In this document: one piece after another, positions 2,446 through 30,855 of the stretch
Position numbering within the stretch: position 1 is the first letter of the stretch
Layout of the letters: every line of letters begins with the position of its first letter
Source: Aplectana chamaeleonis
Lineage: Eukaryota > Nematoda > Chromadorea > Rhabditida > Cosmocercidae
Direction: 5' to 3'
Assembly: GCA_029168955.1 (NCBI GenBank)
Contig: JAPDOI010001166.1
Coordinates: 150,949 to 214,948 of the forward strand
Length of the DNA stretch: 64,000 bases
Notes under the pieces: generated by a model
Database searches by the model: none
Told to the model about the DNA's origin: nothing
The model's input: the letters and a program-made list of their open reading frames with translations, nothing else
Translations under genes and position numbers: made by a program

Positions 2446-2572
2446 TTTCTGAAAGTTGGGCGCCGCAAAAAAAAGGTTAGGGATTTGGCATTGTTCTCAA
2501 ATGTCGTGAAATTGTTTTATTGGATTTGGCTTTCAACTTGATTTCTTAAATGTAGTGAAATTATTGACTTGA

Positions 2573-3246
2573 TTCCTGAAAGTTTAGGTTCCTGGCAAAA
2601 GTAAAGATTTGGCATGGCCGTTTTTTCGAAATTTTAGAAAAAACTTAGTTAAAGGGGAAGGTGAAGAAAAATGGAAAAAGTTTTGAAATATTCCTGAGAA
2701 CGATTTGGCGTAGAATAATTTGATTTCTGGGAAATGTAATGAAATAGTTGAAAGTATGATTTGGCAGTCGAGTTTGAACCAACTATTTACAAGAGTTGTG
2801 CGAAACGAGAGATCGCATTGTATGAGCTTATCCGTAGAACATATCAAAGCAAAATCACGCGTGATATGAAACAAACACTTGATTTTACTTTACTTAATAC
2901 GTGAAGATCGCGGCATTCCAGCTCACAAACGAGCTTTTACTGCTTGCCTTATCACGCGTGATTTTGCTTTGATATGTTCTACGGATAAGCTCATACAATG
3001 CGATCTCTCGTTTCGCACAACTCTTGTAAATAGTTGGTTCAAACTCGACTGCCAAATCATACTTTCAACTATTTCATTACATTTCCTAAAAATCAAATTA
3101 TTCTACGCCAAATCGTTCTCAGGAATATTTCAAAACTTTTTCCATTTTTCTTCACCTTCCCCTTTTAACTGAGTATATTTCTAAAATTTCGAAAAAACGG
3201 CCATGCCAAATCTTTACTTTTGCCAGAAACCTAAACTTTCAGGAAT
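2573..3246. repeat. Palindromic 5' head of A1
   Basis: Arms 2573 to about 2870 and about 2949 to 3246 are near-perfect inverted copies (about 300 bp each), with a 75-80 bp spacer containing TTAATACGTGAAGA. Inner arm ends carry the palindrome TCACGCGTGA. The same structure heads A2, A3 and A4. ORFs on both strands here (SFRTTLVNSWFKLDCQ-type) are mirror images of one another and are not genes. Confidence 0.85.
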
Positions 3247-3483
3247 TTCATTTACTTTTCCTGAAGGTTTCCTTTCTAACATGGTTTATTTACTTTTCCT
3301 GAAGGTTTCCTTTCTAACATGGTTTATGCCTGGTGGTGTTAATTCAAAGCAAACCCACTGATGCCCTGCCCTCCCCCCCCTTCTATGACGTCCTGCACGC
3401 TCGCACTGATGTCCTGCACACGTTCTACGGCGCTCTGCGCACACCCATTTGGTTCACAAGCACGCTCATGCCGATCATTTTTT

Positions 3484-3733
3484 CCGCAGGGCTACCGTAA
3501 CCCTCCTTCGGAAGTTTTACAAGTGTCAGCCTGGATATGAGCACATCGTTATAGCCAACCATCATCTTTGCACAATTTCGACCTCCTCAGTCCTTTCCCA
3601 GTGGCTTCTCGAAGAGAGCGGTGTGTGAATGACTGCATACCGCTCCTCTCCCCTTTTATATCCCGCATGGTATGAGCGTGTGTTATCGTTCGTTATCATG
3701 TTTTGTCCAAGAATGATTACGGTAGCCCTGCGG
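3484..3733 (-). promoter_or_regulatory. Inverted-repeat cassette with TATA-like box and stem-loop (A1)
   Basis: Bounded by CCGCAGGGCTACCGTAA and its reverse complement. On the minus strand it has TATAAAAG (3660 to 3653) followed about 10 nt downstream by a stem-loop, GCGGTATGC...ACACACCGC, with a loop of GAATGA/TTCATTC type. Homologues occupy the same position in A2, A3, A4 and B2, and a solo copy lies at 35754-36060. The TATA-to-stem spacing would place a transcription start in or just before the stem, pointing toward array A and the element's 5' head. Promoter activity is inference from sequence only. Confidence 0.45.
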
Positions 3734-3764
3734 AAAAAATTATCGGCATGGGCGTGCTTGTATT

Positions 3765-4785
3765 TGGGTCCCACACACTTTCTACGGCGTCCGACGCACT
3801 CTCATTTGGGTCCCACACACTTTCTACGGCGTCCGACGCACTGTTATTTGGGTCCCACACATTTTCTACGGCGTCCGACGCACTCTCATTTGGGTCCCAC
3901 ACACTTTCTACGGCGTCCGACGCACTCTTATTTGGGTCCCACACGTTTTCTACGGCGTCCGACGCACTCTCATTTGGGTCCCACACGTTTTCTACGGCGT
4001 CCTACGCACTCTCATTTGGGTCCCACACATTTTCTACGGCGTCCTACGCACTCTCATTTGGGTCCCGCACACTTTCTACGGCGTCCGACGCACTCTCATT
4101 TGGGTCCCACACACTTTCTACGGCGTCCTACGCACTCTCATTTGGGTCCCACACACTTTCTACGGCGTCCGACGCTTTGTTATTTGGGTCCCACACATTT
4201 TCTACGGCGTCCTACGCACTGTTATTTGGGTCCCGCACACTTTCTACGGCGTCCTACGCACTCTCATTTGGGTCCCACACACTTTCTACGGCGCCCGACG
4301 CACTGTTATTTGGGTCCCACACATTTTCTACGGCGTCCTACGCACTCTCATTTGGGTCCCACACATTTTCTACGGCGTCCTACGCACTCTCATTTGGGTC
4401 CCGCACACTTTCTACGGCGTCCGACGCACTCTCATTTGGGTCCCACACACTTTCTACGGCGTCCTACGCACTCTCATTTGGGTCCCGCACACTTTCTACG
4501 GCGTCCGACGCACTCTCATTTGGGTCCCACACACTTTCTACGGCGTCCGACGCACTGTTATTTGGGTCCCACACGTTTTCTACGGCGTCCTACGCACTCT
4601 CATTTGGGTCCCACACACTTTCTACGGCGTCCGACGCTTTGTTATTTGGGTCCCACACATTTTCTACGGCGTTCTGCGCACTCCTACTGGGGTCCCGCAC
4701 ACTTTCTACAGCGTCTTGCGCACCCCTACTGGGGTTCCGCACACTATCTAAGGCGTTCTGTGGATTTCTTCTGATTCACACCGTG
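3765..4785 (+). repeat. 42-bp minisatellite array B of A1 (about 24 units)
   Basis: Unit: TTTGGGTCCCACACACTTTC + TACGGCGTCCGACGCACTCT + CA. Units differ by a few substitutions (CACACA/CGCACA, CTCTCA/CTGTTA, CCGAC/CCTAC). Because 42 is a multiple of 3 and no unit has a stop in several frames, long repetitive ORFs (14-residue repeats such as LGPTHFLRRPTHSH) appear on both strands; these are a by-product of the period, not evidence of protein. Confidence 0.95.
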
Positions 4786-5306
4786 CGGCGTTCTAAAAAA
4801 TACATCCAAGATCCCGCCGTATTGATTGAAGCGTTCAATCCTAAACAAATGCCTATCAGTGACGGTGTTTATTTCATTAGATCATTTTTACGAATGAGTA
4901 AACGTCGGATGGTTTATAATAACATGTTTACGTGTTTTTGTCTCACTTGACCCTCAATTTTGAGGTCCCGCAAAAATTGAGCTACCAACTTCAAATTTTG
5001 TCAGGAGCTAACGGCAATCATAACAAACTTTCTGGCCAAAAATCAGCTTTCTAGCTCAACGATAAGTGTTCCAACAAGATCATGTACGCCAACTGAAAAA
5101 AAGGAGATGAACCCTTTTTTCGACCAAAATCACGTGGTTTTGACAATTTTTCTCGAATCTCAGGTAACCATTCCAGACCATTTTTTGAACAGTTATTCAA
5201 CTTTCTAAAGTATATTAAATGCAAAAAGAACGGACTTCCTACGTTCACTCTGGACCCTGATACTGAGATCAGGGGGTTGCGCGATGGCGAATCAAAGCCA
5301 AATCTG

Positions 5307-5325
5307 GTGAGCGCTTCGCGCTCAC
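5307..5325 (+). other. 3' terminal stem-loop of A1
   Basis: GTGAGCGCTTCGCGCTCAC: 8-bp perfect stem with a TTC loop, followed by CACAA and the insertion junction at 5330/5331. A second hairpin, CCCTGATACTGAGATCAGGG (5255-5274), lies just upstream. A hairpin adjoining the 3' terminus is a hallmark of Helitrons and Helentrons; no CTRR end is present, which is closer to the Helentron pattern. Confidence 0.7.
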
Positions 5326-5391
5326 CACAATTTGGCTGATGATGGTATTTGTGGACATCGTAATCATTAAAATATAGTGAGATTGCTGCTA

Positions 5392-6682
5392 TTAGGTCTA
5401 GAAGTTAATTTCCGCGTTTTTGTTGTTATTGATATTTTGTAAAAAATAAAATTATTTTTATATAACGAATTTTATGTTATAATGCTCACTGTATTATCAG
5501 CTTTCTATTGATATATAACTTGCTTCACGTACCTTATAAAAAAGTATTATTTTAGTTTCAGAATATGTCAACTTTTGTGCCGGAAAAACGCCATTTGCGG
5601 GAAGCTCTCCTTTTCCTTTTTCATCTCAAGAAGAAAGCCACTGACGCGCACCAAATGCTTGCCCAAGCTTACGGGGATGCTGCTCCATCCATAAGAACCT
5701 GCCAAGAATGGTTTCAGCGTTTCAAATCGGGTGATTTTGACGTTAAGGACAAAGATCGACCAGGACAGCCAAAAAAGTTCGAAGACGAAGAACTTCAGGC
5801 TTTGTTGGATCAAGATTCGGCTCAAACGCAAGAACAGCTCGCGGCATCTCTCGGCGTCACCCAAAAAGCAATTTCTATTCGATTGAAGGCAATGGGGAAG
5901 ATTCAAAAGGAAGGAAAATGGATCCCTATGAGCTCTCAGAACGCAACAAAGAGCAGAGAAAAACAACTTCACAAATCTTGTTGGACCGATTCCAAAGAAA
6001 GTCTTTTTACACCGCATCATAACTGGCGATGAAAAAGTGGGTGTACTACGACAATCCGAAGCGAAGAAAATCGTGGTTTAGTCCTGGTGAAACAACAACT
6101 TCGACCGCAAAACCAAACATCCACGGGAAGAAGGTCTTACTGTGCATATGGTGGGATCAACGCGGTATACTGTACTATGAACTTCTTCAACCTGGCGAAA
6201 CAGTTACTGCGAATCGCTATCAACATCAACTAGCGCAATTGCGGCATGAAATCGATGGAAAGAGAGACCAGAATGGGCGAGTCGACACGAAAAAGCCATA
6301 TTGCTTCATGATAACGCTCGACCTCATGTTGCTCGAACGGTAAAGGATACGCTAAAAAGAGTTCAAATGGGAAGTCTTACCGCACCCGCCGTACTCTCCA
6401 GACATCGCCCCGTCGGATTATCACCTTTTCCGGTCAATGGCGCATGGTCTAGCGGAGCAGCGCTTTCAAGATCGTCAAGATGTCAAAAAATGGCTCGATG
6501 AATGGGTGGAGGCCAAACCAGAAAAATTTTATTATGATGGAATCCATAAGTTACCCAAACTCTGGGAAATGGTTGTTATTAATGACGGAAATTATTTTGA
6601 ATAAAAATTTTGTTTAAGTATGTCCAGTTTTCAATAGTGTAAAAAGCGTAAAAAAAACGCGGAAATTAACTTCTAGACCTAA
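5392..6682 (+). mobile_element. mariner transposon (1,291 bp), degenerate
   Basis: Perfect or near-perfect 31-bp inverted ends beginning TTAGGTCTAGAAGTTAATTT, flanked by TA on both sides (5390-5391 and 6683-6684). The matching empty site lies in the other arm of the host palindrome near 6910-6925 (GCTGCTAATGGATTTAGCACG), consistent with a TA insertion. Length and end structure fit the mariner family. The internal transposase gene is broken. Confidence 0.9.
5565..6604 (+). pseudogene. mariner transposase, frameshifted
   Basis: Cut-and-paste transposase of the Tc1/mariner superfamily, mariner (DD34D) type. The first open segment (5565 to about 5940) carries the N-terminal helix-turn-helix region (TCQEWFQRFKSGDFDVKD, DRPGQPKKFEDEELQALLD). 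Frame is then lost; conserved pieces continue in other frames: ITGDEK (first catalytic Asp, near 6030), WVYYDNPKRRKSW, HGKKVLLCIWWDQ, LLHDNARPHVA (second Asp, near 6305), and PYSPDIAPSDYHLF (third Asp, near 6395-6435). The end reads WLDEWVEAKPEKF...NYFE and stops at 6602-6604. An extra G just after the GDEK codons and later indels break the frame, so the copy cannot make a full transposase. Normal family length is about 345 residues, which this span matches. Confidence 0.92.
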
Positions 6683-6977
6683 TATTTGATTTGGCACGCG
6701 CTCTACCAATTATCAGAGTCAAATCACGCGTCAGAAGGAAGTTTGAGTCGAACAAGATTTGGATCAAATCAGAACAAGAATAAGTCTGGCAACAAAAACG
6801 TTCCCATACAATGTGAACCGTGAAAGCGTTGAGGACACAAATACTATCATGAGAAATACTTCTGACACGTGATTTTACTCTGATAATTGATAGAGCGCGT
6901 GCTAAATCCATTAGCAGCAATCTCACTATATTTTCGTGATTACGATGTCTACAAATACCATCGTCAGCCAAATTGTG

Positions 6978-6996
6978 GTGAGCGCGAAGCGCTCAC
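6978..6996 (-). other. 3' terminal stem-loop of A2
   Basis: GTGAGCGCGAAGCGCTCAC (reverse complement of the A1 stem-loop), 5 nt inside the element's 3' junction at 6972/6973. Confidence 0.7.
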
Positions 6997-7549
6997 CAGA
7001 TTCGGCTTTGATTCGCCATCGCGCAACCCCCTGATCTCAGTATCAGGGTCCAGAGTAAACGTAGGAAAACCGTTCTATTTGCATTTAATACACTTTAGAA
7101 AGGTAAATAACTGTTCAAAAAATGGTCCGAAATGGTTACCTGAGATTCGAGAAAAAGTGTCAAAACCACGTCATTTTGGTCGAAAAAATGTTCATCTCCT
7201 TTTTTTCAGTTGGTGTTCACGATCTTGTTGGAACATTTATCGTTGAGCTAGACAGCTCATTTTTGGCCAGGGAGCTGGTTTTGTTTGCACCTAGCTCCTG
7301 TCAAAATTTGAAGTTGGTAGCTCAATTTTTGTGGAACCTCAAAATTGAGGGTCAGGAAAGACAAAAACACGTAAACATGTTATTATAAACCATCCGACGT
7401 TTACTTATTCGTAAAAATGAACTAGTGAAATAAACACGTTACTGATAGGCTTTTGCTCAGGATTTGACGGGGCAACGCTTCAATCAATACGGCAGGATCT
7501 CGGAAGTACTTTTTGGAACGCGGCACGGTGTGACTCAGAAGTGCGCCAC

Positions 7550-9395
7550 AGAACGCCGTAGAAAGTGTGCGGAACCCAAGTGGGAGTGCGCCGGACGCCG
7601 TAGAAAGTGTGCGGGACTCAAGCGGGAGTGCGCCGGACGCCGTAGAAAGTGTGCGGGACCCAAATGGGCGCGCGCAGAACGCCGTAGAAAGCGTGCGGGA
7701 CCCAAGTGGGAGTGCGCCGGACGCCGTAGAAAGTGTACGGGACTCAAGTGGGAGTGCGACGGACGCCGTAGAGAGTGTGCGGGACCCAAATGAGAGTGCG
7801 CCACAAGCCGTAGAAAGCGTGCGGGACCCAAAAGGGAGTGCGCCGGACGCCGTAGGAAGTGTGCGGGACTCAAGTGGGAGTGCGCCGGACGCCGTAGAAA
7901 GTGTGCGGGACCCAAATGAGAGTGCGCCACACGCCGTAGAAAGCGTGCGGGACCCAAGTAGGAGTGCGCCGGACGCCGTAGAAAGTGTGCTGGACCCAAA
8001 TGAGAGTGCGCCGGACGCCGTAGAAAGTGTGCGGGACCCAAGTGGGAATGCGCCGGACGCCGTAGAAAGTGTGCGGGACCCAAATGAGAGTGCGCCGGAA
8101 GCCGTAGAAAGCGTGCGGGACCCAAGTGGGAGTGCGCCGGACGCCGTAGAAAGTGTGCGGGACTCAAGTGGGAGTGCGCCGGACGCCGTAGAAAGTGTGC
8201 GGGACCCAAATGAGAGTGCGCCACAAGCCGTAGAAAGCGTGCGGGACCCAAAAGGGAGTGCGCCGGACGCCGTAGAAAGTGTGCGGGACTCAGGTGGGAG
8301 TGCGCCGGACGCCGTAGAAAGTGTGCGGGACCCAAATGGGCGTGCGCAGAACGCCGTAGAAAGCGTGCGGGACCCAAAAGGGTGTGCGCCGGACGCCGTA
8401 GAAAGTGTGCGGGACTCAAGTGGGCGTACGCAGAATGCCGTAGAAAGCGTGCGGGACCCAAGTGGGAGTGCGCCGGACGCCGTAGAAAGTGTGCGGGACT
8501 CAAATGGGAGTGCGACGGACGCCGTAGAAAATGTGCGGGACCCAAATGAGAGTGCGCCACAAGCCGTAGAAAGCGTGCGGGACCCAAAAGGGAGTGCGCC
8601 GGACGCCGTAGGAAGTGTGCGGGACTCAAGTGGGAGTGCGCCGGACGCCGTAGAAAGTGTGCGGGACCCAAATGAGAGTGCGCCACACGCTGTAGAAAGC
8701 GTGCGGGACCCAAGTGGGAGTGCGCCGGACGCCGTAGAAAGTGTGCGGGACCCAAATGGGAGTGCGCCGGACGCCGTAGAAAGCGTGCGGGACCCAAGTG
8801 GGAGTGCGCCGGACGCCGTAGAAAGTGTGCGGGACCCAAATGGGAGTGCGCCGGACGCCGTAGAAAGCGTGTGGCACCCAAGTGGGAGTGCGCCGGACGC
8901 CGTAGAAAGTGTGCGGGACTCAAGTGGGAGTGCGCCGGACGCCGTAGAAAGTGTGCGGGACCCAAATGAGAGTGCGCCACAAGCCGTAGAAAGCGTGCGG
9001 GACCCAAAAGGGAGTGCGCCGGACGCCGTAGAAAGTGTGCGGGACTCAGGTGGGAGTGCGCCGGACGCCGTAGAAAGTGTGCGGGACCCAAATGGGCGTG
9101 CGCAGAACGCCGTAGAAAGCGTGCGGGACCCAAAAGGGTGTGCGCCGGACGCCGTAGAAAGTGTGCGGGACTCAAGTGGGAGTGCGCCGGACGCCGTAGA
9201 AAGTGTGCGGGACCCAAATGAGAGTGCGCCACACGCCGTAGAAAGCGTGCGGGACCCAAGTGGGAGTGCGCCGGACGCCGTAGAAAGTGTGCGGGACCCA
9301 AATGAGAGTGCGCCGGACGCCGTAGAAAGTGTCCGGTGACAAAGTGAAAGTGCGCAAGACGCCGTAGAAAGTGTGCGGGACCCAAATAGAAGCAC
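7550..9395 (-). repeat. 42-bp minisatellite array B of A2 (about 44 units), with higher-order blocks
   Basis: Plus-strand unit: GTGCGCCGGACGCCGTAGAA + AGTGTGCGGGACCCAAATGA + GA, the reverse complement of the A1 array unit. A variant block (CGCCACAAGCCGTAGAAAGC followed by GGGACCCAAAAGGGAG) recurs near 7797, 8217, 8547 and 8967, i.e. at about 420, 330 and 420 bp, close to 10, 8 and 10 units. Repetitive ORFs of 590-674 codons are open on both strands throughout. Confidence 0.95.
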
Positions 9396-9415
9396 GCCCA
9401 TGCCGATCATTTTTT

Positions 9416-9661
9416 CCGCAGGGCTACCGTAACCATTCTTGAGCAAAACATGATAACGAACGATAACGCACGCTCATAACATGCTGGGTGTAAAAGGGTG
9501 GAGCGGTATGCATTCATTCACACACCGTTCTCTTCGAGAAGCCGCGGGGAAGTGGCTGAGGAGGTCGAAATTGTGCAAACACGTTTGTTAGCTATTACGA
9601 TGTGCTCATATGCAAGCTGACACTCAGAAATTTTTGAAGGAGGGTAACGGTAGCCCTGCGG
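9416..9661 (+). promoter_or_regulatory. Inverted-repeat cassette with stem-loop (A2)
   Basis: Homologous to 3484-3733 in opposite orientation. Ends CCGCAGGGCTACCGTAACC and GGTAACGGTAGCCCTGCGG. The TATA-like site is degraded to TGTAAAAGGG (near 9489); the stem-loop GCGGTATGC...ACACACCG follows near 9500-9530. Confidence 0.45.
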
Positions 9662-9699
9662 AAGAATGATCGGCATGAGCGTGCTTGTGACCCAAAAGG

Positions 9700-9880
9700 G
9701 TGTACGCAGTGTGTGGGACATCAGTGGGAGTGTGCAAGATGTAACAGAATCTGCGCAGGACATTAGTGGGAGTGTGTAGGACGTCATAGAAAGTATGCAG
9801 GACATCAGAGAGGTGTTCAGGACATCAGTTGGAGTGCGCAGTACGTCATAGAAGGGGGAGGGGGGCAGGACATCAGTGGG
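9700..9880 (-). repeat. Array A remnant of A2 (about 4 units of 42 bp)
   Basis: Degenerate GTGTGCAGGACATCAGTGGG / AGTGTGTAGGACGTCATAGA units, the same 21+21 organisation as the long array A at 27950-29400 in reverse complement. Confidence 0.8.
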
Positions 9881-9950
9881 TTTACTTTCATCTAACACCT
9901 TCAGGCATAAATCATGTTAGAAAGGAAACCTTTAGGAAAAATAAATGAAA

Positions 9951-10598
9951 TTCCTGAAAGTTTAGGTTCCTGGCAAAAGTGAAGATTTGGCATGGCCATA
10001 GAAATATACTCATTTAAAAAGGGAAAATAAAGAAAAATGAAAAAAGGTTTTGAAATATTCCTGAGAACGATTTGGCGTAGAATAATTCGATTTTTGGGAA
10101 ACGTAGTGAAATAGTTGAAAGTATGATTTGGCAGTCGAGTTTGAACCAACTATTTATAAGAGTTGTGCGAAACGAGAGATCGCATTGTATGAGCTTATCC
10201 GTAGAACATATCAAAGCAAAATCTAGCGTGATATGGAAGAAACAGTTGATTTTACTTTACTTAATACGTGAAGATCGCGGCATTCCAGCTCACAAACGAG
10301 CTTTTACTGCTTGCCTTATCACGCGTGATTTTGCTTCGATATGTTCTACGGATAAGCTCATACAATGCGATCTCTCATTTTGCACAACTCTTATAAATAG
10401 TTGGTTCAAACTCGACTGCCAAATCATACTTTCAACTATTTCACTACATTTCCTTAAGTCGAATTATTCTACGCCAAATCGTTCTCAGGAATATTTCAAA
10501 ACCTTTTTTCATTTTTCTTTATTTTCCCTTTTTAAATGAGTATATTTCTATGACCATGCCAAATCTTCACTTTTGCCAGGAACCTAAACTTTCAGGAA
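9951..10598. repeat. Palindromic 5' head of A2
   Basis: Inverted arms from TTCCTGAAAG (9951) and CTTTCAGGAA (10598) converging on a spacer near 10240-10310 that contains TTAATACGTGAAGATCGCGG. Very similar to 2573-3246. Confidence 0.85.
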
Positions 10599-11217
10599 TC
10601 AAGTCAATAATTTCTCTACATTTGGGAAATCAAGTTGAAAGCCAAATCCAATAAAACAATTTCACGACATTTAAGAACAATGCCAAATCCCTAACCTTTT
10701 TTTGCGGAGCCCAACTTTCAGAAATTTCACAGCTTTTTCCGAGGGTTTCCCTTCTACAATATCGTCAATCTCTGGAGGGAGGAGCCGCGATGCTTTTATG
10801 ATAGCTTTATTATAAAAGTCAAGTTGATGTTTTTGAGGAAACATAGTGGTAGAAATGAAGAAAGAACCGCTCTGTTGCTATGATAGCAAGGTAATATGTA
10901 GCTGCATCGCGGATTCCTAGAGGTAGAATACAAGGCATATACTTTCTGGATTTAAAAGTCTAAAAAATTAGGAAACGAGTTTTAAAATGACAGAATTGCA
11001 CAGGACCAGTCGCTCTAGCCAAATTTCACCGGTTCTTGTCGCTCGTCTGTGCCGGCCCAGACGTCTGACTCGGAGGCATAACTTGCATACGGTGTCCTGG
11101 ACATTAAACTGAGTCCCTGCACACATCCCATCATGTCCTGCACGCCCCTACTGGGGTCCTACACACGTCCCATGATGTCTTGCACACTCCTACCGAGGTC
11201 CAGCACACTAGAGTGTT
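10599..11217 (+). other. Right head arm and body of B1
   Basis: 10599-10724 mirrors 2446-2572 (B1 outer arm). 10725-11090 is unique B-body sequence whose start matches B2. About 11095-11215 is a decayed array A (CACACGTCCCATGATGTCTT / GCACACTCCTACCGAGGTCC). No coding potential recognised. Confidence 0.55.
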
Positions 11218-11245
11218 GCCCAGGTATTCCTTTATTTGAATAACA

Positions 11246-12465: not shown

Positions 12466-12470
12466 TTGTG

Positions 12471-12489
12471 GTGAGCGCGAAGCGCTCAC
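12471..12489 (-). other. 3' terminal stem-loop of B2
   Basis: GTGAGCGCGAAGCGCTCAC, identical to the ends of A2 and A3 although the adjoining 3' region (CCGCGCGGATGCCC...) differs, so the stem-loop is the conserved terminal feature of both subfamilies. Confidence 0.7.
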
Positions 12490-12683
12490 CAGGATTTGGC
12501 TTTGATCTCTTCCCGCGCGGATGCCCTACAATGAGATCACCTATTCATACCGTCAACAGAGGTATGAGCTGTACACTATTCGACGCGCTGCAAGAAATTA
12601 CATATGTGTGCAACTTTTCATCATAACTGGTCCCCGCTTTCTAAAGTTATGACCTCTCAAAGTACGCAAAAACGTTCTTCACC

Positions 12684-12783
12684 ACCGCCTCCGCCTCCGC
12701 CTCCGCCTCCGCCTCCGCCTCCGCCTCCGCCTCCGCCTCCGCCTCCGCCTCCGCCTCCGCCTCCGCCTCCGCCTCCACCTCCG
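12684..12783 (+). repeat. (CCGCCT)n microsatellite
   Basis: About 16 perfect CCGCCT hexamers. It creates poly-proline and poly-arginine ORFs on the two strands; neither has flanking coding character. Confidence 0.97.
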
Positions 12784-12839
12784 TCCGTCGAAAACCATTT
12801 TTTTGGAAGGCGTGGACCAAATCGCTCGAAAATTTGTGA

Positions 12840-13037
12840 CTAGAGGTAATCGGCCACGGGAATGACGAAAATAATTGTCAGAACTCACCATAATGACTTC
12901 TGGGCCCCTAACGGGCGTTTGAAACTCGGAAACCGGCCTCTCAAGATTAGTTTATAAAAATGACGGGTTTTTCGTTATCAGTCATTGTTTTCTTAGAGAC
13001 TCCATATAAATACCTTGCTCTCTAGGGTGGTGTACTC
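12840..13037 (+). repeat. Diverged direct repeat inside B2 (partner 22440-22635)
   Basis: The block around TTATCAGTCATTGTTTTCTTAG...AGGGTGGTG matches CTATCAATCATTGTTTTTATTAG...GGTAGCCTCAC at about 22575-22630, in the same orientation. The sequences are about 70% identical by eye. No function recognised. Confidence 0.5.
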
Positions 13038-13068
13038 TAAGGCCCCGGTCATAGTTGGTGCTATTGTG

Positions 13069-13087
13069 GTGAGCGCGAAGCGCTCAC
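13069..13087 (-). other. 3' terminal stem-loop of A3
   Basis: GTGAGCGCGAAGCGCTCAC, 5 nt from the 13063/13064 junction. Confidence 0.7.
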
Positions 13088-13629
13088 CCGATTTGGCTTT
13101 GATTCGCCATCGCGCAACCCCCTGATCTCAGTATCAGGGTCCAGAGTAGACGTAGGAAGACCGTTCTTTTTGCATTTAGTACACTTAAGAAAGGTGAATA
13201 ACTGTTAAAAAAATGGTCCGAAATGGTTACCTGAGATTGGAGAAAAAGTGTCGAAACCACGTCATTTTGGTCGAAAAAATGTTCATCTCCTTTTCTTTTT
13301 TCAGTTGGCGTTCACGATCTTGTTGGAACACTTATCGTTGAGCTAGAGAGCTCATTTTTGGCCAGGGAGCTGGTTTTGTTTGCACCTAGCTCCTGTCAAA
13401 ATTTGAAGTTGGTAGCTCAATTTTTGTGGAACCTCAAAATTGAGGGTCAGGAAACACAAAAACACGTAAACATGTTATTATAAACCATCCGACGTTTACT
13501 TATTCGTAAAAATGAACTAGTGAAAAAAACACCGTTACTGATAGGCTTTTACTCAGGATTTGACGGGCAACGCTTCAATCAATACGGCAGGATCTCGGAA
13601 GTACTTTTTGGAACGCTGCACCGTGTGAC

Positions 13630-17670: not shown

Positions 17671-17690
17671 GCCCATGCGGATCATTTTTT

Positions 17691-17940: not shown

Positions 17941-18084
17941 AAAAATGATCGGCATAAGCGTGCTTGTGACCCAAATGGGCGTACGCAGAACGCCGTAGAA
18001 AGTGTGTGGGACCCAAATGAGAGTGCGTTGGACACCTTAGAAAGTGCCGGACCCAAATGGGTGTGCGCAGAACGCCGTAGAAAG

Positions 18085-18310
18085 TGTTCAGGACATCAGT
18101 GGGAGTGTGCAAGATGTAACAGAATGTGCGCAGGACATTAGTGGGAGTGTGCAGGATGTCATACAAAGTGTGTAGGACATCAGTGGAAGGGTGCAGGACA
18201 TTAGTGGGAGTGTGCAGGACGTCATAGAAAGTGTGCAGGACATCAGAGAGGTGTGCAGGACATCAGTTGGAGTGCGCAGGACGTCATAGAAGGGGGAGGG
18301 GGCAGGACAT
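18085..18310 (-). repeat. Array A of A3 (about 5 units)
   Basis: GGACATCAGTGGGAGTGTGC / AGGACGTCATAGAAAGTGTG 21-bp half-units, the reverse complement of the array at 27950-29400. Confidence 0.85.
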
Positions 18311-18387
18311 CAGTGGGTTTACTTTCATCTAACACCTTCAGGCATAAATCATGTTAGAAAGGAAACCTTTAGGAAAAATAAATGAAA

Positions 18388-19052
18388 TTCCTGAAAGTTT
18401 AGGTTCCTGGCAAAAGTGAAGATTTGGCATGGCCTTGTTTTCGAAGAATTAGATTTATACTCAGGTAAAAGGGGAAGGTGAAGAAAAATGAAAAAAAAAG
18501 TTTTGAAATATTCTTGAGAACGATTTGGCGTAGAATAATTTGTTTTTCGGGGAATGAAGTGAAATAGTTGAAAGTATGATTTGGCAGTCGAGTTTGAACC
18601 GACCATTGATAAGAGTTGTGCAAAATGAGAGATCGCCTTGTCTGTGCTTATCCGTAGAACATATCAAAGCGAAATCACGCGTGTTGATTTTACTTCACCT
18701 AATACGTGAAGACCGCCGCATTACAGCTCCCGAAAATGTTTTGATGCTTCCCATTTCACGCGTGATTTCGCTTTGATATGTTCTACGGATAAGCACAGAC
18801 AAGGCGATCTCTCATTTTGCACAACTCTTATCAATGGTCGGTTCAAACTCGACTGCCAAATCATACTTTCAACTATTTCACTTCATTCCCCGAAAAACAA
18901 ATTATTCTACGCCAAATCGTTCTCAAGACTATTTCAAGACTTTTTTTTTCATTTTTCTTCACCTTCCCCTTTTACCTGAGTATAAATCTAATTCTTCGAA
19001 AACAAGGCCATGCCAAATCTTCACTTTTGCCAGGAACCTAAACTTTCAGGAA
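18388..19052. repeat. Palindromic 5' head of A3
   Basis: Arms 18388 to about 18680 and about 18760 to 19052 pair almost perfectly. The spacer near 18685-18755 again contains TAATACGTGAAGACCG. The arms differ from A1/A2 in sequence detail (GATAAGCACAGACAAGG versus GATAAGCTCATACAATG) while staying matched to each other, so the arms evolve in concert. Confidence 0.85.
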
Positions 19053-20180
19053 TTTGCATCTGCATCCCGCACCCCCATCACCCCAACACCCCCCGCACCC
19101 CCCAACACCACCCCGGTCGATACGTATGTTTAAAATGATGGAGTGAGGTTGAGAAAATCTTTCGATGCATCCAACTAGATATGACGATGATTACGTGGCC
19201 AACAGGATTGCACCTGTTCAGAGAAATAGTGAAGGCGAGTATGGGTGAAGTCACGGAGGTAGCAGTAAGGTTAGCTTTCTAGTGATACGCAATGTTTTAT
19301 CTTCGACCCGCCCACCCGGTGATTTTCTCATCCGCCGTCATCCACGTATTGCATGGATATCGACCGCGTCGGATACATTGAGTGATTTTTCTCAACCTCA
19401 CTCCATCATTTTAAACATACGTATCGACCGGGGGGTGCGGGGGTGTTGGGGGGTGCGGGGGTGCGGGGAGCGGGGGATACACCAGTGATTTTCAGCTTCA
19501 CCTCACCATGTTGTTCATACGTATCGACCGGGTGGGTGTTGGGGTGTGCGGGGGGTGAGGCCTTAGGCCCCGGTCATAGTTGGATGAGCCGACGCCTCCA
19601 GCCCGGTCGATACACACAGAATGCATTGGAAATGGGATGCAAAAATCACTCGGTGTATCCCCCGCACCCCCAACACCCCCAACACCCACCCGGTCGATAC
19701 GTATGAACAACATGGTGAGGTGAAGCTGAGAAAATCACTCAGTGTATCCCCGCACCCCCAACACCCCCCGCACCCCCAACCCCACCCGGGTCGATTCGTA
19801 TGTTTAAAATGATGGAGTGAGGTTGAGAAAAACACTCAGTGCATCCGACGCGGTCGATATCCATGCAATACGTGGATGAGAAAATCACCGGGTGGGCGGG
19901 TCGAAGATAAAACATTGCGTATCACTAGAAAGCTAACCTTACTGCTACCTCCGTTACTTCACCATACTCGCCTTCACTATTTCTCTGAACAGGTGCAATC
20001 CTGTTGGCCACGTAATCATCGTCATATCTAGTTGGATGCATCGAGTGATTTTCTCAACCTCACTCCATCATTTTAAACATACGCATCGACCGGGGTGGTG
20101 TTGGGGGTGCGGGGGGTGTTGGGCGGTGCGGGGGGTGTTGGGGGTGCGGGGGGTGTTGGGGGTGCGGGAGGATGCAGATG
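19053..20180. repeat. G/C-tract palindrome of foldback F
   Basis: Inverted arms of about 400-500 bp containing GGTCGATACGTATGTTTAAA, GTTAGCTTTCTAGTGATACG and GGGGGTGCGGGGGTGTTGGG tracts, with several smaller internal inversions (19400-19800). Candidate for strong secondary structure; no ORF of interest. Confidence 0.8.
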
Positions 20181-20334
20181 CAAATAGCACCAACTATGAC
20201 CGGGGCCTAAACGTCCGGCTTGGAACAGGACGCTATGCGGAAGGGTTGTTTTTGAGCGTGGCGCGTGTTTGTACCATGCGCACCAAAGATAAGAAGTCGT
20301 CGCAGGGTGTGCTGAAGTGTCGGTTGACTATGCG

Positions 20335-21830
20335 AGACCGCAGTAGGAGTATGCAGGACGTCGTGGAACTACAGCAACCCCTCAGTAGGGGTGTGCAGGA
20401 CGCCGTAGAATGTGTGCAGGACCTCAGTAGGAGTGTGCAGGACCTTAGTAGGAGTGTGCAGGGACATCATGGGACCTGTGCAGGACCCCAGTAGGGGTGT
20501 GCAGGACGTCGTAGAATGTGTGCAGGACCTCAGTAGGAGTGTGCAGCACCTTAGTAGGAGTGTGCAGGACATCATGGGACCTGTGCAGGACCCCAGTAGG
20601 GGTGTGCAGGACCTCAGTAGGGAGTGTGCATGACATTATGGGACCTGTACAGGACCTCAGTAGGAGTGCGCAGGATATCATGGAACGTGTGCAGGACCCC
20701 AGTAGGGGTGTGCAGGACGTCGTAGAATGTGTGCAGGACACTCAGTAGGAGTGTGCAGGACCTTAGTAGGAGTGTGCAGGACATCATGGGACCTGTGCAG
20801 GACCCCAGTAGAGTGTGCAGGACATCATGGAACCTGTGTAGACCCCAGTAGGGGTGTGCAGGACATCGTAGAATGTGTGCAGAACATCAGTAGGAGTGTG
20901 CAGGACATCATGGGACCTGTGCAGGACCCCAGTAGGGGTGTGCAGGACGTCGTAGAATGTGTGCACAACCTTAGTAGGAGTGTGCAGGACATCATGAAAC
21001 ATGTGCCAAGACCCTGTAAGGATGAGCAGGACTTCATGGAATGTGTGCAGGACATCAGTAGGAGTGTGCAGGACATCATGAAGCGTGTGCAGGACCCCAG
21101 TAGGGATGAGCAGGACGTCATGGAATGTGTGTAGGACCTTAGTAAAATTACACAGGACATCATAGAACGTGTGCAGGACCCCCAATAGGGGTGTGCAGGA
21201 CATCATGGAATGTGTGCAGGACCTTAGTAGGAGTGTGCAGGACATCATGAAACGTGTGCAAGACCCTGTAAGGATGAGCAGGACTTCATGGAATGTGTGC
21301 AGGACATCCCAGTAGGAGTGTGCAGGACATCATGAAGCGTGTGCAGGACCCTCAGTAGGGATGAGCAGGACGTCATGGAATGTGTGTAGGACCTTAGTAA
21401 AATTACACAGGACATCATAGAACGTGTGCAGGACCCCAATAGGGGTGTGCAGGACATCATGGAATGTGTGCAGGACCTTAGTAGGAGTGTGCAGGACACC
21501 ATGAAACGTGTGCAAGACCCCTGGAAGGATGGTCAGAACTTCGTGGAATGTGTGCAGGACATCATTAAGCGTGTGCAGGACCCCAATAGGGGTGTGCAGG
21601 ACATCATGGAATGTGTGCAGGACCTTAGTAGGAGTGTGCAGGACATCATGAAACGTGTGCAAGACCCCTGTAAGGAAGATCAGAACTTCGTAGAATGTGT
21701 GCAGGACATCAGTAGGAGTGTGCAGGACATCATGAAACGTGTGCAAGACCCCCTGTAAGGATGAGCAGGACTTCATGGAATGTGTGCTGGATCTCAGTAG
21801 GGGTGTGCAGGACCTCAGTTCAATGTTCAG
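20335..21830 (-). repeat. Array A of B2 (about 35 units of 42 bp)
   Basis: Alternating 21-bp half-units GTGTGCAGGACCTCAGTAGGA and a partner of the GTGTGCAGGACATCATGGAA type, more diverged than the array in A4 and with occasional 1-nt indels that break the frame. The right end joins the cassette at 21865. Confidence 0.93.
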
Positions 21831-21864
21831 GACACCGTATGCAAGCCAGGCCTCGAATCTACAA

Positions 21865-22177
21865 GAACGATAGTTAAGTCCGCCAGAACAGGGCTACCGT
21901 AATCTCACTCGAGTTGGCTCTAAAATTTTCTAAGTTCTGACTCCGAATTCGCTTCATCTTCCCTACAGGTGGTGATGTTTTCCTGCTTTTAGTCCAGGCA
22001 GATCCTCAACTGCTGACCCCTAGAGAAGGACGGTGTGTGAATCAAGACACACCGCTCTTCACTTCTTTTATACTTTATCATTGATCAATTGGGTATCATC
22101 AAATTTGTTTACGAGAGCCGAATAACATCATTCCTAAGATTACGGTAGTCCTCTTCTGGCGCACTTAACTATCGTTC
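21865..22177 (-). promoter_or_regulatory. Inverted-repeat cassette with TATA box and stem-loop (B2)
   Basis: Arms GAACGATAGTTAAGT.CGCCAGAA...CTACCGTAATCT at both ends. On the minus strand: GTATAAAAGAAGTGAAGAG, then stem GGTGTGT / ACACACC around loop CTTGATTC (near 22030-22060), then GGTCAGCAGTTGAGGATCTG. Closest relative is the solo cassette at 35754-36060. The stem is fully paired here, whereas other copies have other bases that still pair. Confidence 0.5.
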
Positions 22178-22439
22178 GCGCTGGAAATCAATTTCCATTT
22201 TTCAGGCTCAATTTCATGATTGAGCCCGGTAGACCACACTGGTAAACTTTGGCGCGTCAAAAACGTTGGACGATGAGGTTAATATCCGCCACCAATTCTC
22301 ACCAGTCATCTAGTCCTTTTTCCTAGAATGTTGGTGCGACAGTAAGATAACAGGAAAAATTGGTTACGGCACGAACTCCACATGCAGAAAAACTCCAAAA
22401 ATGATTTTGGCGCAAAATTCAAATTCGTATTTACAATGT

Positions 22440-22635
22440 GTTCCGATTGACTTTTCTTTACAAATGAAGGCTTTTCATGGGGCCCGCCAACATTTTCTTT
22501 CACTAAAGGGGCCAAGCTACGCAAAAACTCATAGAAATGATGAAAAACTCTGATAAAGAGGCCTGATACTGCGCTATCAATCATTGTTTTTATTAGAGCT
22601 CTACGGAAATACTTCGACTGGTAGCCTCACCAATG
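22440..22635 (+). repeat. Partner of the 12840-13037 repeat
   Basis: See 12840-13037; contains CTATCAATCATTG. Lies between the cassette and the head of B2. The ORF from 22633 has no domain. Confidence 0.45.
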
Positions 22636-22931
22636 GGCCGTTCATTTCATTTCTGTCTTGAATGGTGCGTGCCCCCCCCCCGTCAAGAAGAGTGCCTAGA
22701 ACCTGTACAATCGGGTCATTTTGAAACTCATTTCTTCATTTTTCGACTTTTAAATTCAAAAAGTATATGCCTTGCATCTATTTGTAGGAAGCCGCGTTGC
22801 AACAATTATCTCGCAGTCTTAGCAGCGGAGCGGTTGTTTCATCATTTCTAACACTGTGTTTTCGAAAAAAAAAACTTCACTTTCAGAGCTTGACGATATT
22901 GTAGAAGGGAAACCCTTGTAAAGTTGTGAAA

Positions 22932-23717
22932 TTTCTGAAAGTTGGGCTCCGCAGAAAAGGTCAAGGATTTGGCATTGCTCTTAAATGTTGTGAAATTGTT
23001 TTATTGGATTGGGCTCTCAACTTGATTTTTCAAATGTAGTGAAATTGTTGAATTGATTTGGCTGTGATGATACTATATGCAGATAACATAATCATTAAAT
23101 GTAGTGAAATTGTTGCAAACGAATTTGGCAGGAGCTCTATGAATTATCATAGTCAAATCACGCGTCAGAAGGGGTTTCTCTTGGAGCGCATATTGAATCA
23201 AATGAGAACAAGAATAACTCTAGCAGAAAAACCTTCTCATACAATGTGAACCGTGGAAGCGTTCAGGACACGAAGACATAGCATTAGTAGCTAATAAATT
23301 GCGTTAGATTTCGTTTTCATGATCTTTATCTAATCGGTGAAGGAAGGTCTGGTACCTTAGTAGGAGCTACACTGAAAAGGCAGATTAACATTCGAAAACC
23401 TTATTTCTAGTCGATAAGGCCAGGTTTCGTTCATTGTTGGCTGTTTTCTTTTTGTCTTTATTTGCTCGCCAGAGGACCTTCTGACGCGTGATTTGACTAT
23501 GATAATTCATAGAGCTCCTGCCAAATTCGTTTGCAACAATTTCACTACATTTAATGATTATGTTATCTGCATATAGTATCATCACAGCCAAATCAATTCA
23601 ACAATTTCACTACATTTGAAAAATCAAGTTGAGAGCCCAATCCAATAAAACAATTTCACAACATTTAGGAGCAATGCCAAATCCTTGACCTTTTCTGCGG
23701 AGCCCAACTTTCAGAAA
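22932..23717. repeat. Palindromic 5' head of B2
   Basis: TTTCTGAAAGTTGGGCTCCG (22932) and its mirror (to 23717) bound arms of about 240 bp. The centre (about 23180-23470) is unpaired and includes ACAATGTGAACCGTGGAAGC, also seen in the B1 centre near 6810. This copy carries no insertion and gives the empty site for A1 and A2 (TTGATTTGGCTG at 23053). Confidence 0.85.
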
Positions 23718-26600: not shown

Positions 26601-26769
26601 TCTTTTAACGAGATTCTCACAAATATTATTATGCCAAATCATAAACCTCCAGTAGCGAAGCAAAACAGTTAGATAATAGGTTACTGTTTTGACATTCCTA
26701 GTTTTACAACACAGTTTCATATCGACGTGTAACTCCGAGTTACTAACAAAAGTCAGAAGCAAAAACTGA

Positions 26770-27848
26770 TTCCTGAAAGTTCAGGTTCCTGGCAAAAGTA
26801 AAGATTTGGCATGGCCATTTTTTTTTCGAAAAATTAGAAATATACTCAGTTAAAAGAGGAAGGTAAAGAAAAATGAAAAAAAGTTTTGAAATATTCCCGA
26901 GAACGATTTGGCGTAGAATAATTCGATTTTTGGGAAACGTAGTGAAATAGTTGAAAGTATGATTTCGCATTCGAGTTTGAACCAACTATTGATAAGAGTT
27001 GTGCAAAATGAGAGCTCGCATTGTATAAGCTTATCCGTAGAACATATCAAAGCAAAATCACGCGTGATATGTAACAAACAGTTGCTTTCACTTCACTTAA
27101 AGGCAAGGTCCGGTCAGATTTTGACACCACCGAAATTCGGGTTAGAAGATAGATTGGGCTGGTCTAGCTGGACACCGTCCAAAATTTTGTCAAACTCTCA
27201 GTCCGTATTTCTGGAGAAAACAGCCTGAAAGTCAGGGATTACGGTATTCACAGCATAATAATCATAGCTGGAATGGCCGATAATTACACAGCACTTTTGA
27301 AGAATGCGTGGACAACCGCTAAAATATGGACGAGGGCCACACTTTTCTGACTTTTCTGGATCACCGGCTAACGGAAGTGGCTGGAATAACTTGAAGAAGA
27401 CCGGTTTTAACGCAGTTTTCGCATGTTCCTTCGGACTACCTGTACCATAAGCACAGATTCAGCGGGAAATCTCAGAATCGAAATTCTGCCCGGACCCTGC
27501 CTTTAATACGTAAAGACCGCGGCATTCCCGAACCAGCTTTTACCGATTGCCTTATCACGCGTAATTTTTCTTCGATATGTTTTACGGATAAGCTCATACA
27601 ACGCGATCTCTCGTTTTGCACAACTCTTATCAATAGTTGGTTCAAACTCGACTGCCAAATCATACTTTCAACTATTTCACTACATTTCCCAAAAATCGAA
27701 TTATTCTACGCCAAATCGTTCTCGGGAGTATTTCAAAACGTTTTTCATTTTTCTTTACCTTCCCCTTCTAACTGAGTATATTTCTAATTTTTCGAAAAAA
27801 TGGCCATGCCAAATTTTCACTTTTGCCAGGAACCTAAACTTTCAGGAA
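26770..27848. repeat. Palindromic 5' head of A4, interrupted by a MITE
   Basis: Arms 26770 to about 27070 and about 27550 to 27848 pair closely; the spacer has received the 402-bp MITE at 27101-27502. Confidence 0.85.
27101..27502. mobile_element. TTAA-type MITE (402 bp) with readable empty site
   Basis: Ends AGGCAAGGTCCGGTCAG and the mirror of AGGCAGGGTCCGGGCAG, flanked by perfect TTAA (27097-27100, 27503-27506). The same spacer in A1 and A2 reads CTTAATACGTGAAG with a single TTAA, which proves the insertion and duplication. piggyBac-type target; non-autonomous. Confidence 0.9.
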
Positions 27849-27949
27849 TTTCATTTATTTTTCCTAAAGGTTTCCTTTCTAACATGATTTATGCTTGGTG
27901 GTGTTAATTCAAAGCAAACCCATAGATGCCCTGCCCCCCCCCATCTATG

Positions 27950-29400
27950 ACGTCCTGCACGCTCCCACTGATGTCTGCACACTTTCTGTGACATCCTGCA
28001 CACTCCCACTGATGGCCTGCGCACATTCTGTGACATCCTGCACGTTCCCAACGATGTCCTGGACACTTTCTATGAAGTCCTGCACACTCCCACTAATGTC
28101 TTGCACACTCCCACTGATGTCCTGCACACTTTCTGTGACATCCTGCACGCTCCCACTGATGTCCTGCTCACTTTCTATGACGTCCTGCACACTCCCACTA
28201 ACGTCCTTCACACTCCAACTGCTGGCCTGCGCACATTCTGTGACATCCTGCACATTCCCACTGATGTCCTGCACACCTTCTATGAAGTCCTGCACGCTCC
28301 CACTAGTGTCCTGCGCGCATTCTGTGACATCCTGCACACTCCCACTAATGTCTTGCACACTCCCACTGATGTCCTGCACACTTTCTGTGACATCCTGCAC
28401 TTTCCCACTAATGTCTTGCACACTCCCACTGATGTCCTGCACACTTTCTGTGACATCCTGCACACTACCACTGATGTCCTGCGCACTTTCTGTGACATCC
28501 TGCACTTTCCCACTAATGTCTTGCACACTCCCACTGATGTCCTGCACACTTTCTGTGACATCCTGCACTTTCCCACTAATGTCTTGCACACTCCCACTGA
28601 TGTCCTGCACACTTTCTGTGACATCCTGCACACTACCACTGATGTCCTGCGCACATTCTGTGACATCCTGCACATTCCCACTGATGTCCTGCACACTTTC
28701 TATGAAGTCCTGCACGCTCCCACTAATGTCCTGCGCTTATTCTGTGACATCCTGCACACTCCGACTAATGTCTTGCACACTCGCACTGATGTCCTGCACA
28801 CTTTCTGTAACATACTGCACACTCCCACTGATGTCCTGCACACTTTCTGTGACATCCTGCACACTCCCACTGATGTCCTGCACACTTTCTGTGACATCCT
28901 GCTCACTCCCACTGATGTCCTGCACACTTTCTGTGACATCCTGCACACTCCCACTGATGTCCTGCACACTTTCTGTGACAACCTGCACACTCCCACTGAT
29001 GTCCTGCACACTTTCTGTGACATCCTGCACACTCCCACTGATGTCCTGCACACTTTCTGTGACATCTTGCACACTCCCACTGATGTCCTGCACACTTTCT
29101 GTGACATCCTGCACACTCCCACTGATGTCCTGCACACTTTCTGTGACATCCTGCACACTCCCACTGATGTCCTGCACACTTTCCGTGACAACCTGCACAC
29201 TCCCACTGATGTCCTGCACACTTTCTGTGACATCCTCCACACTCCCACTGATGTCCTGCACACATTCTGTGACATCTTGCACACTCCCACTGATGTCCTG
29301 CACACTTTCTGTGACATCCTGCACACTCCCACTGATGTCCTGCACACTTTCTGTGACATCTTGCACACTCCCACTGATGTCCTGCACACTTTCTACGGCG
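27950..29400 (+). repeat. Array A of A4 (about 34 units of 42 bp)
   Basis: Half-units CACTCCCACTGATGTCCTGCA and CACTTTCTGTGACATCCTGCA alternate strictly in the 3' half; the 5' half has more variants. In register with array B: the second half-unit corresponds to CACTTTCTACGGCGT.. of B, and the array passes straight into CACTTTCTACGGCGTTCTGC at its end. A 535-codon ORF (CTLPLMSCTLSVTS repeats) and several minus-strand ORFs are open through it. Confidence 0.95.
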
Positions 29401-29451
29401 TTCTGCGCACAACCATTTGGGTTACAAGCACGCTCATGCCGATCATTTTGT

Positions 29452-29701
29452 CCGCAGGGCTACCGTAACCCTCCTTCGAAAAATTTCCAAGTGTCAGCCT
29501 AAATATGAGCACATCGTAATAGCCAACAATCATGTTTGCACAATTTCGACCTCCTAAGCCACTTCCCAGCGGCTTCTAGAAGAGAGCGGTGTGTGAATGA
29601 ATGCATACCGCTCCTCTGCCCTTTTATACCCCGCATGTTATGAGCGTGTGTTATCGTTCGTTATCATATTTTGTTCAAGAATGTTTATGGTAGCCCTGCG
29701 G
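29452..29701 (-). promoter_or_regulatory. Inverted-repeat cassette with TATA box and stem-loop (A4)
   Basis: Ends CCGCAGGGCTACCGTAACC and GTTTATGGTAGCCCTGCGG. Minus strand: GGGTATAAAAGGGCAGAGGA, then GCGGTATGC...CACACCGC stem-loop (29587-29612). The best-preserved TATA-like box among the subfamily A copies. Confidence 0.5.
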
Positions 29702-29734
29702 AAAAAATGATCGGCATGGGCGTGCTTGTATTTG

Positions 29735-30265
29735 GGTCCCGCAAAGTTTCTACGGCGTCCGGCGCATCCCACTTGGTTCCTGCACACGTTCTACGGCGTC
29801 TTGCGCACTTCCACTTGATCACCTCACAGTTTCTACGGCGTCCAACGTACTTTCTTTTGGATCCCACACACTTTCTACGGAGTACTGCGCACACCCATTA
29901 GGGTCCCGCACACATTCTAGGCGCCCGGTGCGCTCTCATTTGGGTCCCACACATTTTCTACCGCGTCCTGAGCACTCTCATTTGGGTCCCACACACTTTC
30001 TACGGCGTCCGACGCACTGTTATTTGGGTCCCACACATTTTCTACCGCGTCCTGAGCACTCTCATTTGGGTCCCACACACTTTCTACGGCGTCCGACGCA
30101 CTGTTATTTGGGTCCCACACATTTTCTACGACGTTCTGCGCACTCTCATTTGGGTCCCGCACACTTTCTACGGCGTCCGGCGCACTCCCACTTGGGTCCC
30201 ACACACATTCTACGGCGTTTTGCCCATTCCTACTGGGGTTCCGCACACTATCTACGGCGTTCTGT
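29735..30265 (+). repeat. Array B of A4 (about 12-13 units)
   Basis: Same unit as 3765-4785 (TTTGGGTCCCACACACTTTC...), more diverged in its first units. Ends with the conserved boundary ...CTGATTCACACCGTGCGGCG shared by A1 and, in reverse, A2 and A3. Confidence 0.93.
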
Positions 30266-30831
30266 GACGCACTTCTGATTCACACCGTGCGGCGTTCCAA
30301 AAAGTACTTCCAAGATCCCGCCGGATTGATTGAAGCGTTGTCCCGTCTCAGGGAGCGTTCATTCTTGAGAAAAAACCTATCAGTAACGGTGTTTATTTCA
30401 TTAGTTCATTTTTACGAATGAGTAAACGTCGGATGGTTTATAATAACATGTTTACGTGTTTTTGCCTTTCTTGACCCTCAATTTTGAGGTTCCACAAAAA
30501 TTGAGCTACAAACTTCAAATTTTGACAGGAGCTAGGTGCAATCATACCCAACTTTCTGGCCAAAAATGAGTTTTCTAGCTCAACGATAAGTGTTCCAACA
30601 AGATCGTGTACGCCAACTGAAAAAAAAGAAGATGGACCATTTTTTCGACCAAAATCACGTGGTTTTGACAATTTTTCTCGAATCTCAGGTAACCATTCCG
30701 GACCATTTTTTGAAGAGTTATTCAACTTTCTGAGGTATATTGAATGCAAAAAGAACGGAGTTTCTACGTTTACTCTGGACCCTGATACTGAGATCAGGGA
30801 GTTGCGCGATGGCGAATCAAAGCCAAATCTG

Positions 30832-30850
30832 GGGAGCGCTTCGCGCTCAC
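30832..30850 (+). other. 3' terminal stem-loop of A4 (one mismatch)
   Basis: GGGAGCGCTTCGCGCTCAC; the second base is G instead of T, so the outer stem loses a pair. Confidence 0.65.
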
Positions 30851-30855
30851 CACGA

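Follow-up and report, generated by a model that had tools for sequence, protein, structure and literature searches.

Introduction

A stretch of 64,000 nucleotides from the nematode Aplectana chamaeleonis (assembly GCA_029168955.1, contig JAPDOI010001166.1, positions 150,949 to 214,948 of the forward strand; hereafter “the window”) carries, between its positions 2446 and 30855, six related copies of a mobile element with a long palindromic 5′ head: A1, A2, A3 and A4, and the F/B-type copies F1 and F2. With a probability of roughly 0.7, these copies belong to a non-autonomous rolling-circle (Helitron-like) transposon group, in which A and F/B are two related subfamilies. What is new here is that the two arms of the head have changed in concert, that F heads have repeatedly received insertions at one base within the motif GATTTGGC, and that the same genome holds a RepHel-coding Helitron with a similar 42-bp minisatellite. 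Internal minisatellites as such are already known from C. elegans Helitrons, which, like all published systems below, are cited from excerpts of the papers named. The copies were first noted in a preliminary description made from the letters of the window, and they are real: the head fold, the z score of the 3′ hairpin and the matches elsewhere in the genome all lie far beyond chance.

The genome searched is a 1.04-Gb assembly of 2087 contigs. The first 60 bp of A1, used as a query, gave 41 matches, 30 of which were read in 20 stretches of about 10 kb, with one further match inside the window. Both ends of one copy were present in 13 of these stretches; in the other seven the 3′ end lay outside the stretch, was broken or stood in tandem form. 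A second query, 106 bp spanning the 3′ end, yielded 861 first-look candidates genome-wide, of which 40 were scored.

Architecture of the Element

A and F/B have in common a palindromic 5′ head, a cassette, 42-bp arrays, an inverted motif, a terminal hairpin and a final CAA. The initial claim that six copies follow one layout stood for the five that have a 3′ end, but no 3′ end of F1 was found in the window, and array A differs in length, being shortest in A1, at about two units by eye, and longest in A4, at about 34. The 3′ end at position 12466 is F2's own, because F2 spans 23717 to 12466 on the reverse strand with A3 nested in it.

Uninterrupted A heads are about 646–677 bp long; a short loop separates their two arms, each of about 295 bp. 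The head of A1 has a folding energy of -345.5 kcal/mol, whereas 20 shuffles average -64.9. The ends of the head are inverted (TTYCTGAAAGTT...AACTTTCAGRAA), which gives it a foldback shape. The ends of A heads can be aligned with those of F heads, and GATTTGGC is common to both and recurrent within them. In A1 and F2 this 8-bp motif lies at the 5′ side, while its inverted form GCCAAATC lies beside the 3′ hairpin. TTTGGC occurs three times per arm in A1 and F2 and twice in the locus L038; 500 resampled sequences gave means of 0.18–0.28, with a maximum equal to the observed value in each case. A heat-shock-element-like sequence, TTCCTGAAAGTTT, stands at both head ends of A1 (2573-2585 and 3233-3245) as well as in A3, L038, L039 and L028, and none occurs in window positions 31000-64000; C. 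elegans Helitrons are described as supplying heat-shock elements (PMC6927752).

The 3′ hairpin is made of TGGTGAGCGC-TTC-GCGCTCACCA, followed by CAA. The 19-nt terminal stem-loop plus CACAA proposed at first is right as the core, but the full fold comprises 10 bp (23 nt) and leaves CAA. In A1 and F2 the folding z score is about -5. A compensatory change, C:G replacing A:T on both sides, is seen in L040 and L051, which may represent one lineage. The A and B cassettes have common ends (CTACCGTAA...TTACGGTAGCC). Folded for A1 alone, the cassette stem-loop has a z score of -3.2, with 1 of 200 shuffles as good, and a similar one is visible by eye in F2; the cassette carries TTTTATA in A1 and A4 and TTTTACA in A3. 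At gathering thresholds, Rfam has no match in window positions 1-32000.

Insertion Between A and T Without Duplication

In the copies read, A precedes all 29 outer 5′ ends and T follows all 27 3′ ends. The elements start with TTCC in A copies and TTTC in F copies and end with CACAA in 26 of 27 cases (CACGA in one), the frame being ambiguous by one base per side. The 5′ count comes from 54 rows, from which 25 inner head ends were left out, and it includes the duplicate pair L027/L031; both counts include the L026 tandem units and a repeatedly used site in F heads, which contribute three and six of the 3′ ends, respectively. A fourth L026 unit, cut by the end of its stretch, was omitted, and a lax 3′ pattern scan (58 groups, many by chance) was set aside in favor of the 27 ends. 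Apart from the repeated F site, the flanks of the copies look unrelated.

Empty sites, sought among the loci read and not by a genome-wide search of joined flanks, exist for three targets; all are continuous across the join (marked below by a slash), with neither duplication nor loss. The target of A1 and A2 is empty in both arms of F2, in both arms of the F head at L029, a locus that coincides with L007, and in the mirror arms of L048, L049, L050, and L052. That of A3 is empty in its mirror arm within the window, where the join is exact and nearby repeat units differ in number. That of L041 is empty in a neighboring repeat, with 116/120 positions identical and no gap. In a genome query at the F site, 30 of 40 matches are F arms beginning with the target A, without an element 3′ end attached to them; the query lacked the left flank, so these fit empty sites without demonstrating them. 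In the copies read, the genome search with element ends and flanks, which the preliminary description had proposed, found A/T constant, and the empty sites show no target duplication. Its three independent targets need amending: insertion between A and T without duplication or loss is confirmed at empty sites, but A1 and A2 occupy mirror-identical sites of one F head and therefore represent one target sequence, not two. For A4, inserted in the open reading frame (ORF) of a long interspersed element, the A and T flanks are in place, but no empty site was found among the loci read.

One locus, L026 (C408:1268000-1277900), is a head-to-tail tandem array whose units, each of about 2.87 kb, are linked by (AT)n and have no cassette and a collapsed 3′ hairpin. 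Another, L032, has a 35-bp repeated 5′ end that could come either from insertion into an A head motif or from tandem duplication. The Helitron-like, non-autonomous character first suggested for the family is well supported by insertion between A and T without duplication, fixed ends, the 3′ hairpin with its compensatory change, the head-to-tail tandem array and the RepHel genes of the genome.

Concerted Change of the Head Arms

Head arms often change jointly along lineages, while single inserted copies mostly do not. The clearest case is A3, with 27 differences from the consensus in both arms and two in one arm. In a count of 17 copies, symmetric versus one-armed differences number 12 vs. 10 in A2, 12 vs. 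18 in A4, 11 vs. 14 in L038, 3 vs. 10 in L034, 4 vs. 3 in L041 and 1 vs. 3 in L043; the other ten copies have no symmetric differences. In a larger count of 25 copies, private changes, each seen in a single copy, comprise 102 one-armed and 19 symmetric ones (10 of the latter in A3 and 4 in L032), whereas changes common to several copies are divided between 61 symmetric and 67 one-armed. Those confined to the L026 tandem units comprise six one-armed and two symmetric changes. Both counts omit gapped cells; L031, which has the same flanks as L027 and is taken as a duplicate locus, was kept in the first and left out of the second.

Joint change along lineages, combined with one-armed private mutations, is read as correction of one arm by the other during transposition. 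It is well known that inverted repeats can undergo gene conversion, and ordinary chromosomal conversion with no tie to transposition could also make the arms alike. This explanation is possible, though we are inclined to doubt it. The almost wholly symmetric A3 speaks in its favor, but conversion at the locus should also have erased the private mutations, which are mostly one-armed, and L027, L034, L036 and L040 each have five or six private changes, none of them symmetric. Ongoing conversion in the chromosome would appear to fit the arm pattern less well than correction at transposition. Half of the shared changes are nevertheless one-armed, so correction would be incomplete, and A3 and L032 are each known from one copy, so that “private” may there mean an unsampled lineage.

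Repeated Insertion at One Base of F Heads

At 10 places in the genome an element 3′ end joins F near one base. Five of these were read closely; C75, C846, and C2020 are among the places outside the close reading. Insertion at GA/TTTGGC is found in six cases, by the 3′ junction in L048-L051 and by both junctions in A1 and A2, and a further insertion, in L052, lies about 10 bp away. The hot-spot base is inside GATTTGGC of the F heads, and it has received elements of both types: the inserts of L048, L049, and L050 are A-type, while those of L051 and L052 are B-type. The mirror arm of L051 (L051r 488-601, C1483:589350-589950) breaks off at GCCAAATC, two bases past the hot-spot base, into unrelated sequence, possibly through a second insertion or a rearrangement.

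Could all these cases go back to one old insertion that was copied along with F, with no hot spot at all? The insert-carrying F copies are indeed 91-95% alike among L048-L051, which are known by their 3′ junctions alone, and the mirror arm of L051 is broken off just past the site and not empty. Yet the F copy closest to that of L048 among those compared is that of L051 (94.6%), and the two carry an A-type and a B-type element at the identical base. Between L049 and L050 the A parts are 88.8% alike (over about 135 bp) and the F parts 95.4%; A1 and A2 belong to different lineages; and in L048, L049 and L050 the mirror arm holds no insertion. A single copied insertion is therefore unlikely. Arm-to-arm copying of one insertion within the F1 head is ruled out for A1 and A2, as the head arms of A1 are 93.5-94.7% like those of A2 and 95-99.7% like those of 12 other copies; the one-armed insertions of L048, L049 and L050, with their empty mirror arms, speak against it as well.

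RepHel Genes and the Search for an Autonomous Partner

RepHel genes are present in the genome, where Helitron_like_N gives 42 match rows. The RepHel Helitron on C66 (L047, L012, L046) carries, close to its 3′ end, a 42-bp array that is about 72-80% like the A3 array over about 300 bp. The relatives of its RepHel include many from Ancylostoma, Haemonchus, Necator, and Ostertagia, the best named ones coming from a mite. Together with an SL1-like leader in the window, these relatives agree with a nematode origin of the DNA. No long palindrome was found in the 3.4 kb read upstream of the C66 RepHel. Since its 3′ region differs from those of A and F/B, C66 is ruled out as the autonomous partner; the strand of the array, opposite in C66 and A, is uninformative as a clue to orientation. 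Window positions 44560-46199 (-), with a 42-bp array of their own and 621 bp at 79% to C66, apparently hold a non-autonomous relative of this Helitron. The likeness between the two stops at GGCT, so CTGG/T, which fits CTRR, is only a possible end, two copies being too few to fix one.

Just upstream of the C66 RepHel, L047:1-295 contains an array and what appears by eye to be the 3′ region of another copy, apparently a tandem, 3′-truncated Helitron. At L045:4335-5450 a large palindrome lies directly behind the 3′ region of the C1497 RepHel, beside F-like motifs.

Several results weigh against a rolling-circle origin of the family. The longer Rep/helicase relative with the same ends, for which the preliminary description had proposed to look, was not found in the parts read. 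Around 15 Rep loci, read with about 1.5 kb per side (one stretch with 193 masked bases), there is neither TTYCTGAAAGTT nor a matching hairpin, and the 3′ sides of three Rep loci, read further, do not end like A or B. No RepHel trace occurs in the window, in L001-L008 or in 20 A loci, while the same search detected the controls L012 and L018. The canonical 3′ CTRR is absent from the 27 3′ ends. Finally, the L026 units have no hairpin, and their array may therefore have grown by unequal exchange.

Relation to Known Transposons

The family works like a Helitron, and it departs from Helitron1 and from the Helentron-associated elements (HINEs) on one tested feature each. With canonical Helitrons (Helitron1; Helraiser) it shares the A/T target, the lack of duplication (here seen at the empty sites of three targets) and the presence of a 3′ hairpin, which serves those elements as terminator; they differ in their 3′ CTRR. 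Their 5′ TC compares with TTCC or TTTC here, in the ambiguous frame given above, and their hairpin lies about 10-12 nt from the end, as against 3-4 nt here (PMC4067079, PMC4778049). The nematode Helitrons Helitron1_CE, HelitronY4_CE, and HelitronY1A_CE of C. elegans also have internal minisatellites, namely three satellite regions in Helitron1_CE (PMC9918286) and two tandem repeats in HelitronY4_CE (PMC4039745). The paired arrays, first thought to be new, were thus anticipated. The excerpts of these papers mention no long palindromic 5′ head (PMC9918286, PMC4039745), the comparison being by description alone and not by sequence. A 5′ head with a palindrome of about 300 bp has no description that we found in excerpts of the openly licensed literature; none was found there for arm correction in Helitrons either, without a search aimed at arm correction by name.

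Two further groups resemble the family in part. Helitron2 of Fusarium (FoHeli1/2), for which a circular form is reported, likewise has asymmetric terminal inverted repeats, hairpins at both termini and an AT-containing target, but its hairpins are short and its termini are TC...ATTTT (PMC5148889). The proto-Helentron of Phytophthora shares a 5′ TT and insertion between A and T, and differs by its 3′ CTAG and by encoding RepHel (PMC4067079).

The kinship to Helentrons suggested earlier does not hold. HINEs, including DINE-1 and Cg_HINE, are non-autonomous Helentrons with a 5′ hairpin, central tandem repeats, a 3′ inverted motif and palindrome, and no duplication, a layout that in mites and oyster agrees with the one described here (PMC4067079, PMC7492417). 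The 3′ palindrome is present here too, and an 8-bp inverted motif (GATTTGGC/GCCAAATC) lies near both ends. HINEs, however, target TT, as opposed to A/T in all flanks examined; their subterminal inverted repeats measure 11-15 bp, and their 5′ inverted repeat about 12 bp in place of arms of about 295 bp. That the family is a HINE is thus improbable, and the target excludes formal membership.

Least probable of all is a foldback transposon of the Spy or Galileo kind that moves by cut and paste, makes no target duplication and has the palindromic head as its real mobile unit. The head does have inverted ends and a foldback shape, and Spy elements likewise make no duplications (PMC4482050), but the element is asymmetric, its far end being a hairpin plus CAA unlike the head, and the flanks are A/T and not AAA/TTT. 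The inner flanks at the 25 inner head ends are similar and not unrelated, and the L029 F head runs on into cassette and array, although most F heads of the genome query lie outside the copies read, so that solo heads may exist. The ORFs of at least 100 codons in F2 and five A copies consist largely of array or head sequence, as judged without a scan against transposase families. Spy itself is excluded by the asymmetric ends and by flanks that lack insertion within AAATTT. Galileo and other P-type foldback elements, which carry an inverted repeat at each end and duplicate their target (described in part in PMC4168063), are excluded by the differing ends and the lack of duplication.

A Possible Mechanism

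For the rolling-circle lineage, the following cycle can be proposed. A RepHel protein supplied in trans would act as the motor, bind the GATTTGGC motifs of the 5′ head, nick the 5′ end between A and T, and displace a single strand, the end of the element being marked by the 3′ hairpin. Owing to the self-complementarity of the head, this strand would fold into a hairpin of about 300 bp, in which mismatch correction between the arms would make them alike at each cycle. The strand would then join a new A/T site without duplication, and after insertion the arms would drift apart. The same motif in the heads of related copies would attract new insertions. The full picture, in which the mobile strand passes through the hairpin at every transposition and homes to its own motif in relatives, so that heads serve as both origin and landing pad, is offered tentatively and may well prove wrong.

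If it is true, concerted arms are the trace that a folded single-stranded intermediate has left in the sequence, and old insertions can show whether the movement of Helitron-like elements takes place as folded single strands, something that has so far been inferred from models and cell assays. Repeated insertion in a recurrent head motif provides a concrete candidate binding site for the RepHel protein. It may also explain the pile-up of such elements inside one another and the spread of 42-bp minisatellites through the genome. Concerted arms and insertion into the family's own head motif are two properties that deserve a test.

Positions of the Copies and Neighboring Features

Table 1. Copies, their parts and target sites, in window coordinates.
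Feature	Position	Strand	Description
A1	2573..5330	+	Young A lineage, nested in left arm of head F1
A1 palindromic head	2573..3245	+	Arms about 294 bp, 98.3% alike; TTTGGC three times per arm
A1 cassette	3457..3761	+	Inverted ends, stem-loop, TTTTATA
A1 42-bp array	3762..4715	+	22.7 copies
A1 3′ end	5297..5330	+	Inverted motif GCCAAATC 5297-5304, 10-bp hairpin 5305-5327, CAA
A2	6973..10598	-	Other A lineage, at mirror site in right arm of head F1
A3	13064..19052	-	Nested in F2; head arms 99.3% alike
A4	26770..30855	+	Head loop interrupted at about 27100-27503
F1 palindromic head	2446..10724	+	Holds A1, mariner and A2; body reaches at least 11209
F2	12466..23717	-	Full F/B-type element with A3 nested; 3′ end 12466
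F2 parts		-	Palindromic head 23717-22932, cassette about 22170-21870, array 21819-20337, second palindrome about 20190-19053 (by eye)
Mirror copy of A3 target	20054..20208	+	Empty site; join GATGCAGATGCAAA/TAGCACC
Repeated target GA/TTTGGC, left side (GA)	2571..2572	+	In F head arm; right side resumes at 5331 behind A1

Other elements lie among these copies. Between A1 and A2, the F1 head holds a mariner-like element (5395-6679), with a Mos1-type helix-turn-helix in its ORF and, by eye, TA flanks. The insert in the head loop of A4 (27100-27503), whose ends resemble AAGGCARGGTCCGG and whose flank is TTAA-like, both by eye, is probably a miniature inverted-repeat transposable element. At 11978-11998 (+), an SL1-like leader precedes a coding-like stretch, possibly a retrocopy of a trans-spliced mRNA; it agrees at 21/22 nt with the SL1 leader.

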